Made by a program: the position numbers and the translations under genes
NCBI GenBank assembly: GCA_017408825.1
Contig: JAFQTX010000039.1
Span: 1 to 62,400, forward strand
Reading direction: 5' to 3'
DNA: 62,400 nt
Origin: Alistipes sp.
GTDB lineage: Bacteria > Bacteroidota > Bacteroidia > Bacteroidales > Rikenellaceae
Notes under the pieces: generated by a model
What the model was told of the DNA's origin: nothing
Seen by the model: the letters and a program-made list of their open reading frames with translations, nothing else
Databases searched by the model: none
In this document: positions 1,565-15,736 of the stretch, piece by piece
Layout: each line of letters begins with the position of its first letter
How positions within the stretch are numbered: position 1 is the stretch's first letter

Positions 1565-3340
1565 AGCGTTAGTATGTTTTTATGTTTCGTATTTACTCTC
1601 TTACGTAGACCCCTACCACGACTCGCCCAAGTCATTTAATTTTATCTTTGCATTATCTTTTCCCTGTTGAGCCGCCTTGCGATACCACTCTATGGCCTCA
1701 TTGAGGTCTTTAGTTACACCATGTCCATTATAGTAGCACTCTCCCAGGTAGTATTGCGCATCAGCATTGCCCTGCTCGGCTGATTTACGATACCACGTTA
1801 CCGCTTCGGTATAGTTCTGAGTTACACCTTCGCCATTAAAGTAGCAATAGCCCAAATTGCATTGTGCATGAGCATAGCCCTGCTCGGCAGATTTACGATA
1901 CCACTTTGCCGCTTCTACGTAATCCTGAGTTACACCATAGCCATTAAAGTAGCAATAGCCCAAATTATATTGCGCTTGAGCATCGCCCTGCTCGGCTGAT
2001 TTACGGTACCACTCTACCGCTTCTACGTAATCCTGAGTTACACCATGTCCATTGTAGTAGCAAATACCTAAGTTCTTTTGCGCCCAAGCATTACCCTGCT
2101 CGGCTGATTTACGGAACCATCTTACTGCTTCGGTATAGTTCTGAGTTACACCATGTCCATTATAGTAGCAAAAACCTAAGTTCTTTTGCGCAGCAGCATA
2201 GCCCTGCTCGGCAGATTTACGATACCACTTTACCGCTTCAGCATAATCTTGAGCTACACCTTGGCCATTATAGTAGCTATTACCTAAGTTGTACTGCGCA
2301 GCAGCAGTGCCCTGCTCGGCAGATTTACGCCACCACTTTACCGCTTCAGTGAGGTTTTGGGTTACACCTTGGCCTTTTTCGTAGCAACAGCCCAAATTAT
2401 ATTGCGCTTGAGCAGTGCCTTGCTCGGCCGATTTACGATACCACGTTACCGCTTCGGTATAGTTCTGAGTTACACCTTCGCCTTTTTCGTAGCAATAGCC
2501 CAAATTGTATTGCGCCCAAGCATTACCCTGCTCGGCAGATTTGCGCCACCACTTTACTGCTTCGGCATAATCTTGAGCTACACCAACGCCACTATAGTAG
2601 CAGCCACCTAAGTTGTACTGCGCAGCAGCATCGCCCTGCTCTGCTGATTTACGATACCACTTTGCCGCTTCAGCATAATCTTGAGCTACACCAACGCCAC
2701 TATAGTAGCAGCCACCTAAGTTGTACTGTGCCTCAGCATTACCTTGCTCGGCAGATTTACGCCACCACTTTACCGCTTCAGCATAGTCTTGATCTACACC
2801 AACGCCACTATAGTAGCAGAAACCTAAAGCAAATTGTGATAGAGCATTACCCTGCTCGGCAGATTTACGTAACCACTTTACCGCTTCAGCATAATCTTGA
2901 GCTACACCTTCACCACTATAGTAGCAGTTACCTAAAGCAAATTGTGATAGAGCATTGCCCTGCTCGGCAGACTTACGCCACCACTTTACCGCTTCAGTAT
3001 AGCTCTGATTTACACCTTCGCCTTCATAGTAGCAAGCACCTAATGAAGCTTGCGCATCAGTATAACCCTGCTCGGCTGATTTACGCCACCACTTTACCGC
3101 TTCGGCATAATCTTGAGCTACACCTTGGCCATTATGATATATAACACCCATCCAATATTGCGCCTTAGGGTGATTTTGTTTCACAGCCTTGTTCCACCAC
3201 TTTATCGCCTTCTTGTAATCTTGGTCTACGCCATCGCCATCAGCATAGCATCTTCCTAAAAGGTACTGCGCCTCGGCATCACCCTTTTTGGCACTTTTCT
3301 TATAACTATCAATAGGCTGTGCCTGCACAATCTGAGGCAC
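206..3340 (-). repeat. Two arrays of ~108-bp coding tandem repeats
   Basis: The two SEL1 genes consist of 26 near-identical 108-bp units (11 + 15) interrupted only by the gene junction and the second signal-peptide region. The repeated DNA word for AEQG and the following residues recurs once per unit at high identity. Confidence 0.85.
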
Positions 3341-10851: not shown

Positions 10852-11907
10852 TTACTTTGCATCGCCAAACATAGCACGCACAAACTCTCTGCGTTCGAAC
10901 ATCTTGAGCTGGTCGATACCCTCACCAATGCCGATATAGCGCACAGGGATATTGAACTTATCGCTAATGCCAATCACCACACCACCCTTGGCCGTACCAT
11001 CGAGCTTGGTTATCGTTAGCGATGTCACCTGCGTAGCCTCGGTAAACTGCTTAGCCTGCTCGAAGGCATTCTGACCCGTAGAGCCATCCAGCACGAGCAT
11101 CACCTCGTGTGGAGCGTCGGGGATCACCTTCGACATCACGTTACGAATCTTGGTGAGCTCCTTCATAAGGCCTACCTTGTTGTGCAGACGTCCCGCCGTA
11201 TCGATAAGCACCACATCAGCGCCATTGGCCACTGCTGAGCGCAACGTGTCATAGGCCACCGATGCAGGGTCAGAGCCCATATCCTGGCGCACCATAGTAG
11301 CCCCTGCACGCTCAGCCCACACTGCAAGTTGGTCTATGGCAGCTGCTCGGAAAGTATCGGCTGCACCGATATATACCTTACGACCTGCCTTCGTGAGCTG
11401 CGCAGCGAGCTTACCTATCGTCGTGGTCTTACCTGCGCCGTTCACTCCTACGACCATTAACACATAGGGCATACCCTCCTTCACCTCAATACCGAAATCC
11501 TTTGTCGAGCGGTGCGACTCCTCCATAAGCTGAGCAATCTCGTCACGAAGAATACCCTGCAACTCATCGGCACTCAAGTACTTATCACGTGCCACACGCT
11601 TCTCGATACGCTCGATAATCTTCACCGTGGTATCTACACCCACATCCGAGGTTATAAGCACCTCCTCGAGGTCGTCAAGCACCTCTGCATCGACAGTGGA
11701 GCGGCCCGCTACAGCACGTCGTAGCTTGTTGAAGAAGCCCTCCTTGGTCTTCTCGAGGCCCGCCTCAAGTTCCTTGCGCTCCTCCTCGACCTGCTGAGCC
11801 TCCTCAGCCTCAACACGCTCCTGCTCCTTAGCTATATCTTCGGGTGTAGAGGCAGCACTCTGCTCTGGCTCAACCCTCTTTTTCTTAAACAAATCGAAGA
11901 ATCCCAT
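10852..11907 (-). CDS. ftsY: Signal recognition particle receptor FtsY
   Basis: GTPase that docks SRP-ribosome complexes at the membrane for co-translational insertion. The 351-residue protein has a short acidic N-terminal region rich in Glu (residues 12-50), an N domain (about 55-135) and a G domain with P-loop GVNGAGKT (154-161), DTFRAAA, DTAGRLHNK and TKLDGTAKGG motifs. The start (MGFFDLFKKK) is typical for the family in this phylum. First gene of an ftsY-rimO operon; the promoter at 11931-11962 is a full consensus match and diverges from the YARHG operon promoter only a few bases away. Confidence 0.97.
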   Translation of the reverse strand: MGFFDLFKKKRVEPEQSAASTPEDIAKEQERVEAEEAQQVEEERKELEAGLEKTKEGFFNKLRRAVAGRSTVDAEVLDDLEEVLITSDVGVDTTVKIIERIEKRVARDKYLSADELQGILRDEIAQLMEESHRSTKDFGIEVKEGMPYVLMVVGVNGAGKTTTIGKLAAQLTKAGRKVYIGAADTFRAAAIDQLAVWAERAGATMVRQDMGSDPASVAYDTLRSAVANGADVVLIDTAGRLHNKVGLMKELTKIRNVMSKVIPDAPHEVMLVLDGSTGQNAFEQAKQFTEATQVTSLTITKLDGTAKGGVVIGISDKFNIPVRYIGIGEGIDQLKMFERREFVRAMFGDAK

Positions 11908-11975: not shown

Positions 11976-12007
11976 TTTGCATTTTCCAACAATTACATCT
12001 ATATTTG
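11976..12007 (+). promoter_or_regulatory. Promoter of the YARHG-TIR-M15 operon
   Basis: TTTG (11976-11979), 20 bases, TATATTTG (12000-12007). A full consensus match, with the start expected about 25 bp before ATG 12040. Confidence 0.85.
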
Positions 12008-12039: not shown

Positions 12040-12765
12040 ATGACTAACTCACGACTAATCTTAGGCCTTATGGCTATGCTCTTTATCGCCGTAGCCACCC
12101 CCGTAGAGGCATACACTGCCACTACCAACCGCACCACCGAGACCTCGCAGCGCAACGACAAATTCTACGACGAGGTGACAGGTAGGTGGTACACACGCCA
12201 AGCAAACGACGGACTCTATCCAATTACCCGTGTGCGCAAGCTCACTCACCAAGATCTGCAGTATCTTACCGACTGGGAGTATCGTATCATGCGTAATGAG
12301 ATTTATGCCCGTCACGGCTATATCTTCTCGTCGGCCGACCTTCGTGAGTACTTTGGTCGCCAGTCGTGGTACTACCCCACGACCAAGAACGTGACACTCA
12401 ACTCAATAGAGCAGTACAACGTAAACTTCATAAAGAGGTATGAAGAGGGTGGCACAAGCCAATCATCGTCACAGGATAAGTTCTACGACCCTCAGACAGG
12501 CAGGTGGCACACACGCCAAGCAAACGACGGAGTGTACCCACTCACACGTGTACGTAAACTCACCTACAACGACATTGCCAACTGCTCAAAGAGCCAGCTA
12601 CGCATTATGCGCAACGAGATCTATGCCCGCCACGGCTACATCTTCTCGTCGGCCGACCTTCGTGAGTACTTTGGTCGCCAGTCGTGGTACTACCCCACAA
12701 CTAAGAACGTGACACTCAGCTCAATAGAGCAGTATAACGTGAACTTCATAAAGCAATACGAGTAG
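12040..12765 (+). CDS. Secreted protein with two YARHG domains
   Basis: A 241-residue exported protein. A signal peptide ends near residue 24 (VEAY). Two tandem modules follow, each starting DKFYD...TGRW and containing a YARHG domain: IMRNEIYARHGYIF at about 83-96 and 189-202, then FGRQSWYYPTTKNVTL. YARHG is an extracellular domain of unknown biochemical role found in bacterial surface proteins. The two modules are almost identical at DNA level over about 150 bp, implying recent duplication or conversion. It is the first of three genes; the next gene carries the same domain on a TIR-transmembrane protein, so this one may be its soluble ligand or competitor (inference). Confidence 0.85.
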   Translation: MTNSRLILGLMAMLFIAVATPVEAYTATTNRTTETSQRNDKFYDEVTGRWYTRQANDGLYPITRVRKLTHQDLQYLTDWEYRIMRNEIYARHGYIFSSADLREYFGRQSWYYPTTKNVTLNSIEQYNVNFIKRYEEGGTSQSSSQDKFYDPQTGRWHTRQANDGVYPLTRVRKLTYNDIANCSKSQLRIMRNEIYARHGYIFSSADLREYFGRQSWYYPTTKNVTLSSIEQYNVNFIKQYE

Positions 12766-12797
12766 TCGGCGACAACCATATAAAGAGAGATAATACC

Positions 12798-13637
12798 GTG
12801 CAACAGAGTTCCAAGACACCATACGACGTTTTTATCAGCTACTCACGTGAAGATAGCGAGGAGGTAAGCAAGATATGCGCTGAGCTGGATGCGCTGGGCA
12901 TAAGATATTGGATAGACCGCAATATCAAGGGCTCGGCCAACTTTCTCCACGAGATAACAAAGTATATCTCACAGTGCAAGGTTCTTCTATTTGTCGCATC
13001 CAAAGCCTCGGCTGAATCGCCATGGACACAGAAAGAGGTGCTGTTTGCCATAAATCGCAATAAGAAGATCCTGCCATACCGCATAGGTGACTTCACATTT
13101 GAGTCGGATATGGAGCTCGAGTTTGTATTCTCCAACGTACAGTGGATCGAGGATCGTGATGCCCTAATCAACGACATAATCGCAATATGCGGTTATAACG
13201 ACAACGATGTGGCTATCAACCACACTCAAACAGCGACAAAACACCCAACCACCCCTAAAAGGCGTACGAGCGGTCGTTCCAAGACTATTATCAGCCTCAT
13301 AGTATCTATCCTTCTGCTTGTCTGCGGTGCTGGCTACTTCGTCCAGCAGCACCTTGGCAATAGCTATGAGCAGGAGGAGTACACACCAGCATACAACGAT
13401 GGTAAGTACCCTATAACACGTCAGCGCCGACTCGTTCCCAGCGATATCGAGGGGATGACTACCGACGAGCTGCGCATTATGCGCAACGAGATCTATGCCC
13501 GCCACGGCTATATCTTTGCGGACAAGGCCCTGCATCAATATTTCAGTGCACAGCCTTGGTATCGACCCTCGACAAAGGATGTCAATCTAAACTCTGTCGA
13601 GCAATACAATATTAATTTTATCAAACAGTATGAGTAG
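12798..13637 (+). CDS. TIR-transmembrane-YARHG protein
   Basis: A 279-residue three-part protein: an N-terminal cytosolic TIR domain (residues 7-135; YDVFISYSRED; AESPWTQKEVLFAI, where E80 sits at the position of the catalytic Glu of NAD-cleaving TIRs), a basic linker, one transmembrane helix (about 163-181) and an outward-facing YARHG domain (about 200-279; MRNEIYARHGYIF). With the positive residues before the helix, the TIR domain should be inside and the YARHG domain in the periplasm. The start is GTG 12798, because the TIR fold begins eight residues later and no ATG is available. The last 8 bp overlap the M15 peptidase gene. An envelope-sensing NADase or defence receptor is plausible but unproven. 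Confidence 0.85.
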   Translation: MQQSSKTPYDVFISYSREDSEEVSKICAELDALGIRYWIDRNIKGSANFLHEITKYISQCKVLLFVASKASAESPWTQKEVLFAINRNKKILPYRIGDFTFESDMELEFVFSNVQWIEDRDALINDIIAICGYNDNDVAINHTQTATKHPTTPKRRTSGRSKTIISLIVSILLLVCGAGYFVQQHLGNSYEQEEYTPAYNDGKYPITRQRRLVPSDIEGMTTDELRIMRNEIYARHGYIFADKALHQYFSAQPWYRPSTKDVNLNSVEQYNINFIKQYE

Positions 13638-14535
13638 ACGCACACCATACTATCTCATTTTATTAGTGCTACTTACGGCCTGCGGCATACCCTCGGCACG
13701 CTCAGAGCAGAGCCTACAATTTCATGCCGACTCAATTCCTGCAGGCGCACAACGTCTTATGGAGGCATACCCCGAGCAGGTGATTGGCTACGAGGATAAC
13801 CATATCATCTTTTGGGACTATACACGCTTGATCTACAACGAGGGGAAAAATCGTACTACGGAGCAGATGCATATCGAGCAGGATGTTAAGGACATCTTCT
13901 ACCAAGACTACGACACCACACGCTTTCCGCCCGATTATGGCTACGACCCAGGACGCTATCGCAGCGCTAAGTTTATGGATAAGCTCTACGGCAGTAACCT
14001 CAACGAGGTGCTTATGAACCTCGTGAAGGTGGAGTGGTGTCCTTCGCTGGGTGGCACTCCCGTATACTTCACCAAGGTGGCAGGTGCTGCCGAGGCCCTT
14101 AAGCGTGTATCCGACGAGTTGGAACAACACCCCGAGCTTCGCGAGTGGGTGATTGGTGCACAGACATTCTGTTATCGCAACATCGCACGTATGAAACGCC
14201 GCAGCCCCCATAGCTATGGCATAGCCATAGACCTTGCCGTGCCACGCTCACACTACTGGAGGTCGATGTATCCTTATGCCAACGAATACACAGAGCTTAC
14301 ATATACCAACACCTTTGATATGCGTGTGGTCGAGATATTCGAGAAGCACGGCTTTATATGGGGAGGACGCTGGTATCACTTCGACACCATGCACTTCGAA
14401 TATCGCCCCGAGATGAACCCTCCAAAGAGCGACCTCGAGATAGTTGAGACAGCAAATAAGCCAAGGTGGTATCCATCACCCTGGCTTGTACTCTTCACAA
14501 ATCACTATATGTGGAGTGATGCCTCCTATAAGTAG
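13630..14535 (+). CDS. M15-family D,D-carboxypeptidase-like lipoprotein
   Basis: A 301-residue predicted zinc peptidase of the VanY/M15 type that trims peptidoglycan stem peptides. The signal peptide ends in a lipobox (LLTAC, Cys18), so it is membrane-anchored. The metal site is seen as HSYGIAID (H194, D201) and WYHFDTMHFEYRP (H255), with W and H residues around the site as in M15 enzymes. The long region between the lipobox and the catalytic core is unassigned. It starts inside the end of the TIR gene (ATGAGTAG overlap), so translation is coupled. It converges on the muramidase-like gene with only one base between stop codons. Confidence 0.88.
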   Translation: MSRRTPYYLILLVLLTACGIPSARSEQSLQFHADSIPAGAQRLMEAYPEQVIGYEDNHIIFWDYTRLIYNEGKNRTTEQMHIEQDVKDIFYQDYDTTRFPPDYGYDPGRYRSAKFMDKLYGSNLNEVLMNLVKVEWCPSLGGTPVYFTKVAGAAEALKRVSDELEQHPELREWVIGAQTFCYRNIARMKRRSPHSYGIAIDLAVPRSHYWRSMYPYANEYTELTYTNTFDMRVVEIFEKHGFIWGGRWYHFDTMHFEYRPEMNPPKSDLEIVETANKPRWYPSPWLVLFTNHYMWSDASYK

Positions 14536-14536
14536 C

Positions 14537-15736
14537 CTACTCCTTGTATAGAAGATACTTACGACGTTGCTGTTTGAAGCGCTCCACGTCGTCGGCCCAA
14601 CGGGCCTTAATTTCGTCGGCCGTATGGCCGGCGATTATCATCTCTCGTACATAGCTTACGCCGATTAGCTTCTCGAATACCGATTTGAAGAACTTATCGC
14701 CGAGCTTCAAGTTATTGTAGGCATCTACCAGATACTCGATATTCACGCCCTTGGCCCATATGTCGGCATCCGACACGCCTCGCAGGTCTACACCATAGCA
14801 CACTACACCCTGATGTGGAGGGTTCTTCGAGCCAGCATTTGGCTGTGGCGTAAACTCAAAGTCGTAGCCACGCATATCGGGGTGACCATATATCTCAAAC
14901 GGCGCATCAGTACCTCGTCCCATACTCAACACCGTACCCTCGAATAGGCAGGTTGAGGGGTAAAGATATATGGAGTGTTGCGTGGGCAGGTTTGGCGACG
15001 GAGCTATAGGCAACGTATAGTGTGTCGAGTGATCGTAGTTGCGACATCGGATAACTGTCAATGGCACTTCGGGCACCCAGCCCTCACCTATGGCCATACG
15101 AGCTATTTCGCCCATCGTCAAGCCGTGAACAACGGGGATAGGTATCCATCCCACGCCCGACTTATACTTCATATCGAGCGTCGGGCCATCGACATAGTGA
15201 CCATTAGGATTGGGTCGGTCGAGGACTACAACCTGCTGACCAAAGTCGGCACAAGCCTCCATAATCTGGAGCATAGTAATATAATAGGTATAAAACCTAA
15301 GTCCCACATCCTGCATATCTACGACCAATAGATCGAACGAGCGCATAACCTCGTCCGAGGGTCGCCTCTTTGTGCCAGTATAGAGCGACAAGATGGGTAC
15401 TCCAGTACGCTCATCCACCGAGTTGCGAACCACAACACCCGCCTCAACCGAACCTCGGAAGCCGTGCTCGGGGGCGAAGATCCCCACAAGGTTGATGCCC
15501 TCACGGTGCATCATATCGACGATATGTTCCTGCGTGTCGAACATCGCCGTATGGTTTGCCAACACCGCCACACGCTTACCACGCAATAGCGGCATATAAC
15601 TTGCCGTGTCGGTAGCACCCACAAGCACCTCCTCGCAGCGTTCCACGGCGATAGCCTCACCACTCTTTGCCTCAGCCTTAGAGCCGCAGGCCAGCGTTGT
15701 GGTGAGAAGTGTTAGGATTAGCAATAGTCGTAGCAT
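14537..15736 (-). CDS. namZ: Exo-beta-N-acetylmuramidase NamZ-like lipoprotein (DUF1343)
   Basis: A 399-residue protein of the DUF1343 family, whose characterised members (NamZ) remove terminal N-acetylmuramic acid from muropeptides. Residues 1-17 form a lipoprotein signal (TLAC). Family motifs visible include GKRVAVLANHTA, FAPEHGFRG, LVVDMQDVGLRFYTY, VVLDRPNPNG and GRGTDAPFEIYG. It lies 6 bp after prfB on the same strand and is probably the last gene of the DUF2723-cysS-prfB-namZ series. It ends against the M15 peptidase gene, so two cell-wall enzymes meet tail to tail. Confidence 0.93.
   Translation of the reverse strand: MLRLLLILTLLTTTLACGSKAEAKSGEAIAVERCEEVLVGATDTASYMPLLRGKRVAVLANHTAMFDTQEHIVDMMHREGINLVGIFAPEHGFRGSVEAGVVVRNSVDERTGVPILSLYTGTKRRPSDEVMRSFDLLVVDMQDVGLRFYTYYITMLQIMEACADFGQQVVVLDRPNPNGHYVDGPTLDMKYKSGVGWIPIPVVHGLTMGEIARMAIGEGWVPEVPLTVIRCRNYDHSTHYTLPIAPSPNLPTQHSIYLYPSTCLFEGTVLSMGRGTDAPFEIYGHPDMRGYDFEFTPQPNAGSKNPPHQGVVCYGVDLRGVSDADIWAKGVNIEYLVDAYNNLKLGDKFFKSVFEKLIGVSYVREMIIAGHTADEIKARWADDVERFKQQRRKYLLYKE

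Follow-up and report, generated by a model that had tools for sequence, protein, structure and literature searches.

The 62,400-nucleotide contig JAFQTX010000039.1 of Alistipes sp. (assembly GCA_017408825.1; 1.89 Mb, 83% complete), which was analysed in its entirety and is called the window below, carries a plus-strand operon of three genes, P0001-P0002-P0003, at 12040-14535, between minus-strand ftsY and namZ. The middle gene encodes a membrane protein that joins a TIR domain to a YARHG domain through a transmembrane (TM) helix, the first a secreted protein with two YARHG domains, and the third a peptidase of the M15 family. What is new here is the YARHG-M15 unit itself, the variable cytosolic parts associated with it, and the existence of TIR-TM-YARHG proteins with several TIR origins. 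The features of the locus are as follows.

10852-11907, minus strand: flanking gene ftsY (TIGR00064, 342.8 bits against a cut-off of 260.7).
11976-12007, plus strand: Bacteroidota-type promoter, TTTG-N20-TATATTTG, an exact match to TTTG-N18-22-TAnnTTTG.
12040-12765, plus strand: P0001, predicted secreted (periplasmic) protein of 241 amino acids with two YARHG domains (PF13308 in two stretches, E 6.7e-48).
12223-12447, plus strand: first YARHG domain of P0001 (PF13308, 83.7 bits).
12532-12762, plus strand: second YARHG domain of P0001 (PF13308, 86.4 bits).
12798-13637, plus strand: P0002, single-span TIR-TM-YARHG protein of 279 amino acids with a GTG start (Pfam domains, hydropathy).
12828-13151, plus strand: TIR_2 domain of P0002, predicted cytosolic, with W76xxxE80 (PF13676; alignment to AbTIR 8g83).
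13284-13346, plus strand: transmembrane helix of P0002, residues 163-183, N-in/C-out by charge bias (hydropathy, flanking charges).
13416-13634, plus strand: predicted outer YARHG domain of P0002, residues 207-279 (PF13308).
13630-14535, plus strand: P0003, lipoprotein-like M15 metallopeptidase of 301 amino acids (PF13539, E 1.9e-21), overlapping the P0002 stop by 8 nt (ATGAGTAG).
14537-15736, minus strand: flanking gene for NamZ, an exo-beta-N-acetylmuramidase, convergent with the operon (PF07075, E 9.2e-73; PF20732, E 2.5e-33).

The TIR part of P0002 matches TIR_2 over residues 11-118 (E 9.1e-22, 78.3-79.2 bits, gathering cut-off 28) as well as Pfam TIR (PF01582; 38 bits, cut-off 21.3), and its outer part matches YARHG (E 2.5e-23, 82.2-85 bits, gathering cut-off 27). 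In the alignment to AbTIR, W76TQKE80 of P0002 lies opposite WTNYE, giving the WxxxE catalytic motif, and AbTIR residues S140, R151, D167, W204 and E208 correspond to S14, K25, D40, W76 and E80, four of them kept and one changed from R to K; the correspondence was read off the alignment to 8g83, on which V193, R215 and Y238 are unmapped. Changes at these five residues inhibit AbTIR, the WxxxE motif is needed by most bacterial TIR NADases, and the AbTIR ligand is placed close to the dimer interface (PMC11374754; this and the other papers given by PMC number are represented here by part of their text). By these resemblances the P0002 TIR domain is probably NAD-consuming (NAD, nicotinamide adenine dinucleotide). 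Because the 15 residues preceding the helix include six K/R and no D/E, and the 15 following it no K/R and three D/E, the TIR domain should be cytosolic and the YARHG domain periplasmic.

P0001 scores 161 bits against PF13308 (gathering cut-off 27) and has an N-terminus that, judged by eye, resembles a signal peptide. Its two YARHG cores, at 12283-12435 and 12601-12753 (153 nt each, repeat family D1), are 92% identical in DNA, which suggests that they arose by recent tandem duplication. Exchange of domains through gene conversion among YARHG copies was considered and rejected, the proportion of identical synonymous codons being 0.57 within genomes (13 pairs) versus 0.51 between them (140 pairs), in a test on a 16-codon YARHG core from which P0001's first YARHG copy was lost at the motif filter. 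P0003 scores 76.8 bits against Peptidase_M15_4 (PF13539, cut-off 25) and has a lipobox-like LTAC, again by eye. H194, D201, D252 and H255 (H-x6-D, D-x2-H), which we take to be the M15 residues of the enzyme, are the same in all 18 aligned rows; against the L-alanyl-D-glutamate peptidase 2vo9 there was a single weak match (E 0.068). The M15 peptidase of the cassette probably acts on peptidoglycan. The original prediction for this DNA had described three coupled genes at 12040-14535 behind a single consensus promoter: a soluble exported protein with two YARHG domains, a TIR protein with a glutamate at the catalytic position, one transmembrane helix and an outer YARHG domain, and a lipoprotein peptidase. 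All three open reading frames (ORFs) were found where it had put them, each protein has the parts it had assigned, and the promoter proved to be of the Bacteroidota type.

Comparison with relatives showed that the conserved unit is YARHG together with an M15 subfamily of the P0003 type, and not the TIR domain. (G000 labels the window's own genome, other G numbers its relatives, and L numbers the collected loci.) YARHG is carried by 10 of the 268 genomes of the family, all ten in the genus of the window, and the M15 subfamily by 7 of the 180 genomes of the genus, all seven among the ten with YARHG (Fisher's exact p 1.1e-10 for co-occurrence in the genus); these counts ignore ancestry, and many of the genomes are incomplete. 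The YARHG-M15 operon adjoins ftsY in six of the seven M15 genomes, and namZ too in five of those six; the named relatives that carry it are Alistipes metagenome-assembled genomes (MAGs) from the guts of yak, cattle and water buffalo. In the seventh, G113, the M15 gene directly follows a gene for a PEGA-YARHG protein, its frame being open from an ATG immediately past the YARHG stop. The YARHG genes upstream of the peptidase differ from genome to genome, encoding a secreted double-YARHG protein (G000, G118, G120), a single-YARHG lipoprotein-like protein (G022), a zinc-ribbon-like TM double-YARHG protein (G017, G120, G051) or a TIR-TM-YARHG protein (G000, G017). A conserved operon in relatives had been expected from the original prediction, with TIR as its defining part: the YARHG-M15 pairing stands at this slot in six genomes, TIR is present in just two of the six, and its defining status is not borne out.

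The pairing extends well beyond the genus. P0002 alone retrieved no matches as a query in the contig search, and the three-row alignment A1 gave 299 loci, from which we took the best 80 by their resemblance to the window's protein; proportions among these 80 are no estimate for all YARHG genes. The M15 subfamily occurs in 17 of the best 80 loci and lies directly downstream of YARHG on the same strand in 15, which come from 5 Alistipes, 8 other Bacteroidota, 1 alphaproteobacterium and 1 Desulfobacterales MAG. The same 8-nt overlap, formed by the ATG of the M15 gene with the final Glu codon and stop of the YARHG gene, recurs in 10 of the 15 as well as in the window (L083 being taken from its internal ATG). 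At the Desulfobacterales locus L078 the peptidase is fused, as YARHG-YARHG-M15, and is preceded by a triple-YARHG protein.

Two of these loci invite separate remark. At L078:5191-8203 the triple-YARHG protein has, by eye, an NlpC/P60-like start, and its gene shares the 8-nt overlap with that of the fusion. At L056:5164-7989, the G113 locus, a secreted PEGA-Lcl_C-like-YARHG protein is followed by the M15 peptidase; Lcl_C-like domains occur with TIR as well.

On the cytosolic side, YARHG receptors coupled to M15 differ from one another, having a zinc ribbon, GYF_2, a Ser/Thr kinase or TIR. Among the 15 adjacent loci, six have a cytosolic module recognised by Pfam or at motif level, namely a Ser/Thr kinase in L091 and L093, GYF_2-TM-YARHG followed by the M15 peptidase in L083 (4717-7063), a zinc ribbon in L066, and zinc-ribbon-like CxxC pairs, at motif level only, in L070 and L071. 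The two kinase loci (L091:4876-7048 and L093:4915-7045), in which a Ser/Thr kinase-TM-YARHG gene is directly followed by M15, belong to Bacteroidales and Flavobacteriales MAGs. The strongest argument that P0002 signals, rather than merely being an anchored enzyme, is that inner modules have been exchanged behind YARHG.

TIR-TM-YARHG proteins themselves turned up in no more than three genomes (G000, G017, G047), all Alistipes; within the family, each of the ten YARHG genomes was examined for a TIR domain sharing the ORF (G045 by eye and from its match range). The two among the best 80 loci with TIR and YARHG in one ORF, identified with a profile grown from the P0002 TIR domain, are again G017 and G047. 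A1 matches spanning both domains revealed no second genome among the matches listed for 393 genomes of the order, nor in 247 of the phylum (sets that include the window's own genome and may overlap). No TIR-TM-YARHG protein appeared in 348 genomes of a Clostridium's phylum and 145 of Haloferula's phylum, or in eight chosen genomes, one of which has TIR and YARHG genes 14 kb apart; by eye, TIR and YARHG did not lie close together on one contig in any of these five sets. A search of genomes for such proteins and their neighbours, suggested along with the original prediction, thus yielded two further carriers, among which the tie to M15 is uneven.

In all three proteins the catalytic Glu is invariant and the YARHG core is kept. 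In a tree of 48 TIR domains collected by similarity, the window's domain groups with three genus TIR proteins bearing Lcl_C-like tails (100/99; two of the three tails were scanned and fell below the Pfam cut-off), that of G047 with TIR-TM-FGE-sulfatase proteins (99/97), and that of G017 falls in an 11-row group (99/91). A single TIR-YARHG clade on the TIR part was rejected, being 136 log-likelihood units worse (p-AU 1.7e-36). Because the three TIR domains do not form one clade, TIR probably joined TM-YARHG more than once, or was repeatedly replaced. On the YARHG tree the window's domain lies with its locus mates and the domains of G118 and G022 (90/84, not starred). Of 46 TIR proteins collected for their resemblance to P0002 and A1, some of them truncated where the locus ends, 20 have TIR at the N-terminus followed by a single span and a tail; the 20 include the window's protein and the two like it. 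Scans of ten TIR-span proteins gave tails that include FGE-sulfatase, one Lipocalin_4 and Lcl_C-like parts, most of the last falling below the cut-off. TIR-TM proteins with FGE-sulfatase, lipocalin-like or Lcl_C-like tails are encoded at L147, L033, L164, L020 and L022.

We favour the reading that the operon is an envelope surveillance cassette, whose core would pair a YARHG sensor with a dedicated M15 peptidase that probably has peptidoglycan as its substrate, and whose cytosolic output, here a TIR domain, would be exchangeable; we judge the chance of this to be about even. It builds on domains, a predicted orientation, a layout, co-occurrence, adjacency, a fusion, varied modules and separate TIR origins that were computed or observed. 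The original prediction had read P0002 as a receptor whose YARHG part senses the envelope and triggers the TIR domain, with the soluble protein as a putative partner or decoy. The predicted form, which spans the membrane with TIR on the cytosolic side and YARHG outside, is supported, and is joined by a link to a wall-type peptidase through co-occurrence, adjacency, fusion and varied insides; the part that has not stood is the defining place given to TIR. More tentatively, and with somewhat greater doubt than belief, we propose that YARHG-M15 is a widespread wall-sensing cassette with a plug-in output, and that P0002 is a peptidoglycan receptor of Toll-like layout in which fragments made by its own peptidase trigger the NAD chemistry of the TIR domain.

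In the mechanism that we envisage, for which we infer the ligand, the direction of signalling, the NAD chemistry and the physiological outcome, the M15 lipoprotein would trim wall peptides in the periplasm and so make, edit or remove a ligand, and the soluble and membrane-tethered YARHG domains would bind the wall or the wall-derived ligand, with P0001 buffering or presenting it. A change in ligand, caused by wall damage, an antibiotic, a competitor or a phage lysin, might then cluster single-span P0002 molecules. TIR enzymes act as close pairs; the P0002 TIR domains would form such pairs on the cytosolic side and either cleave NAD+ or produce a signal of the cyclic ADP-ribose (cADPR) type, the outcome being NAD depletion or a nucleotide signal.

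Several observations weigh against this reading. Viewed from the peptidase, the M15 subfamily is present in 12 of 247 genomes of the phylum sample and has YARHG nearby in 3 of the 12, the window's own genome included in both counts (flanks of 1.5 kb, shorter in two loci); because just three have YARHG in their flanks, M15 needs no YARHG. The other 9 of the 15 M15-coupled YARHG proteins are secreted-looking, multi-span or unclear. Both further TIR-TM-YARHG carriers, G017 and G047, are MAGs, and the TIR-peptidase tie is weakened by their arrangements: the TIR gene overlaps M15 in the window only, a zinc-ribbon gene intervening in G017, and the TIR-TM-YARHG gene of G047 sits elsewhere, by topoisomerase-type genes, in a genome that is without this M15 subfamily. 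In G017, Y replaces W in the WxxxE motif. The YARHG tree carries little signal and is compatible with a single TIR-YARHG clade (p-AU 0.142). Finally, no YARHG ligand is given in the available text of the domain literature (PMC3355149, PMC3848476).

An alternative that we regard as unlikely is that P0002 is a membrane-tethered defence TIR, which would sense envelope damage caused by phage, whether by lysin or on entry, and deplete NAD+ in an abortive infection. Patchy presence and the repeated joining of TIR to YARHG are as expected of conflict-driven genes, Pfam ThsB_TIR (PF08937) is reached marginally (22.5 versus 21.2 bits, TIR_2 scoring far higher), and PADLOC models, used without cut-offs, match P0002 (PDC-S66 at E 5.8e-11, SAVED-TIR, ThsB). 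To our eyes the ThsB_TIR and PADLOC matches say TIR rather than Thoeris: the NCBIfam equivalogs stay far under their cut-offs (Retron_TIR 38.4 versus 600 bits, Thoeris ThcB4 33.1 versus 220 bits), no ThsA-like partner adjoins the TIR gene, whose neighbours are P0001, P0003 and the flanking housekeeping genes ftsY, namZ, prfB and cysS, and P0001 and P0003, its partners, suggest wall biology instead. It also counts against a role in defence that no relative spanning both TIR and YARHG was found among 72,556 records of plasmids or 50,697 of phages, and that none of 67 pattern stretches in viral contigs was confirmed as a TIR plus YARHG relative.

We consider it equally improbable that the TIR domain is a non-enzymatic assembly module; clustering through YARHG would then bring TIR domains into contact with one another and so attract a further cytosolic protein, in the manner of animal receptor complexes. 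The single-span layout, with its N-terminal TIR, span and tail common among the collected TIR proteins, would suit such a role, and a survey names complex formation as the commonest TIR role (PMC7075850); W76xxxE80 and further NADase residues are kept, however, and the invariance of the Glu in the three TIR-TM-YARHG proteins likewise speaks against it. That YARHG is a mere wall anchor, and the TIR fusions domain-shuffling noise with little or no selected sensing function, strikes us as very improbable. Such noise could account for fusions in only three genomes, with three TIR origins and a TIR domain that is not conserved at the slot, and within the genus Lcl_C-like parts occur alongside TIR as well as alongside YARHG, which indicates frequent domain exchange. 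Yet all three proteins have open frames in which catalytic Glu and YARHG core persist, the arrangement of TIR, span and YARHG has more than one origin, and the TIR gene of the window has the same M15 junction as the versions without TIR.

Should the surveillance cassette that we favour prove real, it would be a case in which a TIR domain of bacteria takes its input from a wall sensor outside the membrane and not from a phage sensor in the cytosol, and the orphan YARHG domain would gain a testable partner, the M15 peptidase, together with a class of ligand. It would also explain why different signalling modules stand behind one outer domain, and would provide a bacterial layout parallel to the sensing of wall fragments in animal innate immunity. 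Even by itself, the link between YARHG and M15 opens the question of what YARHG binds, posed in 2012, to direct test.

The promoter site at 11976-12007 ends 32 nt upstream of the first ATG, that of P0001. Eight sites with the Bacteroidota pattern occur in the window versus 0.63 expected, none of the eight within the operon. A sigma-70 promoter was rejected and the Bacteroidota pattern adopted in its place, the best sigma-70 site there matching at 9 of 12 positions and the region holding 5 sites versus 4.8 in shuffled sequence, the level of chance. The operon is flanked by ftsY, namZ, prfB and cysS. NamZ, as a convergent neighbour in five of the six genomes with the slot, fits wall recycling, but with prfB and cysS likewise conserved at that place, the adjacency may reflect nothing more than synteny. 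Recent acquisition of the operon was dismissed, its GC content (0.47-0.52) being near that of its neighbours. The host genome has three YARHG domains in all, two in P0001 and one in P0002, and two further TIR_2 matches outside the operon, G000:C26:21217-21555 and G000:C40:110200-110517, one with an Lcl_C-like end by eye and the other in a 906-codon frame. A YARHG domain (36.6% identity) was also noticed at 2917-3162 on the minus strand of MT838141.1, a bacteriophage record of 5.6 kb that comes from human faeces and has no annotation.

Among known systems, PASTA-domain Ser/Thr kinases of the PknB/PrkC type sense wall material with an outer domain and have a cytosolic enzyme. The window's operon has no PASTA domain and no kinase, with TIR instead, and the nearest analogue is the kinase-YARHG protein encoded beside M15 at L091 and L093. 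Closer in domain content are the YARHG receptors of Coggill and Bateman (2012; PMC3355149), zinc ribbon-TM-YARHG and Ser/Thr kinase-TM-YARHG, which like P0002 combine a cytosolic signalling module, one span and an outer YARHG domain. Those authors hypothesised that YARHG binds peptidoglycan and proposed that it senses a ligand, possibly peptidoglycan; a less specific hypothesis, that it binds a moiety near peptidoglycan, is given in PMC3848476. P0002 differs in that its output is a TIR domain and that it is coupled to M15, the peptidases linked to YARHG in the available text of PMC3355149 being caspase-like, M48 and S8. TIR is absent from the main text of PMC3355149 (0 occurrences) and of PMC3848476, a search of open-licence papers that leaves absence from print unproven.

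Thoeris ThsB and other defence TIR proteins (PMC11312562) share with P0002 the TIR family, the WxxxE motif and the marginal ThsB_TIR match, whereas P0002 spans the membrane, carries an outer domain, is without a ThsA partner and falls far below the cut-offs of the NCBIfam defence equivalogs. Bacteroidales TIR-TM-FGE-sulfatase, TIR-TM-Lcl_C and TIR-TM-lipocalin proteins likewise have an N-terminal TIR, a span and a tail, and some are the nearest TIR kin of P0002-type proteins on the tree, but their outer domains are others. Animal Toll-like and IL-1 receptors resemble P0002 in their single span, outer recognition domain and cytosolic TIR (PMC7075850); the analogy is one of layout only, the TIR domain of P0002 being N-terminal and YARHG standing in place of leucine-rich repeat or immunoglobulin domains.

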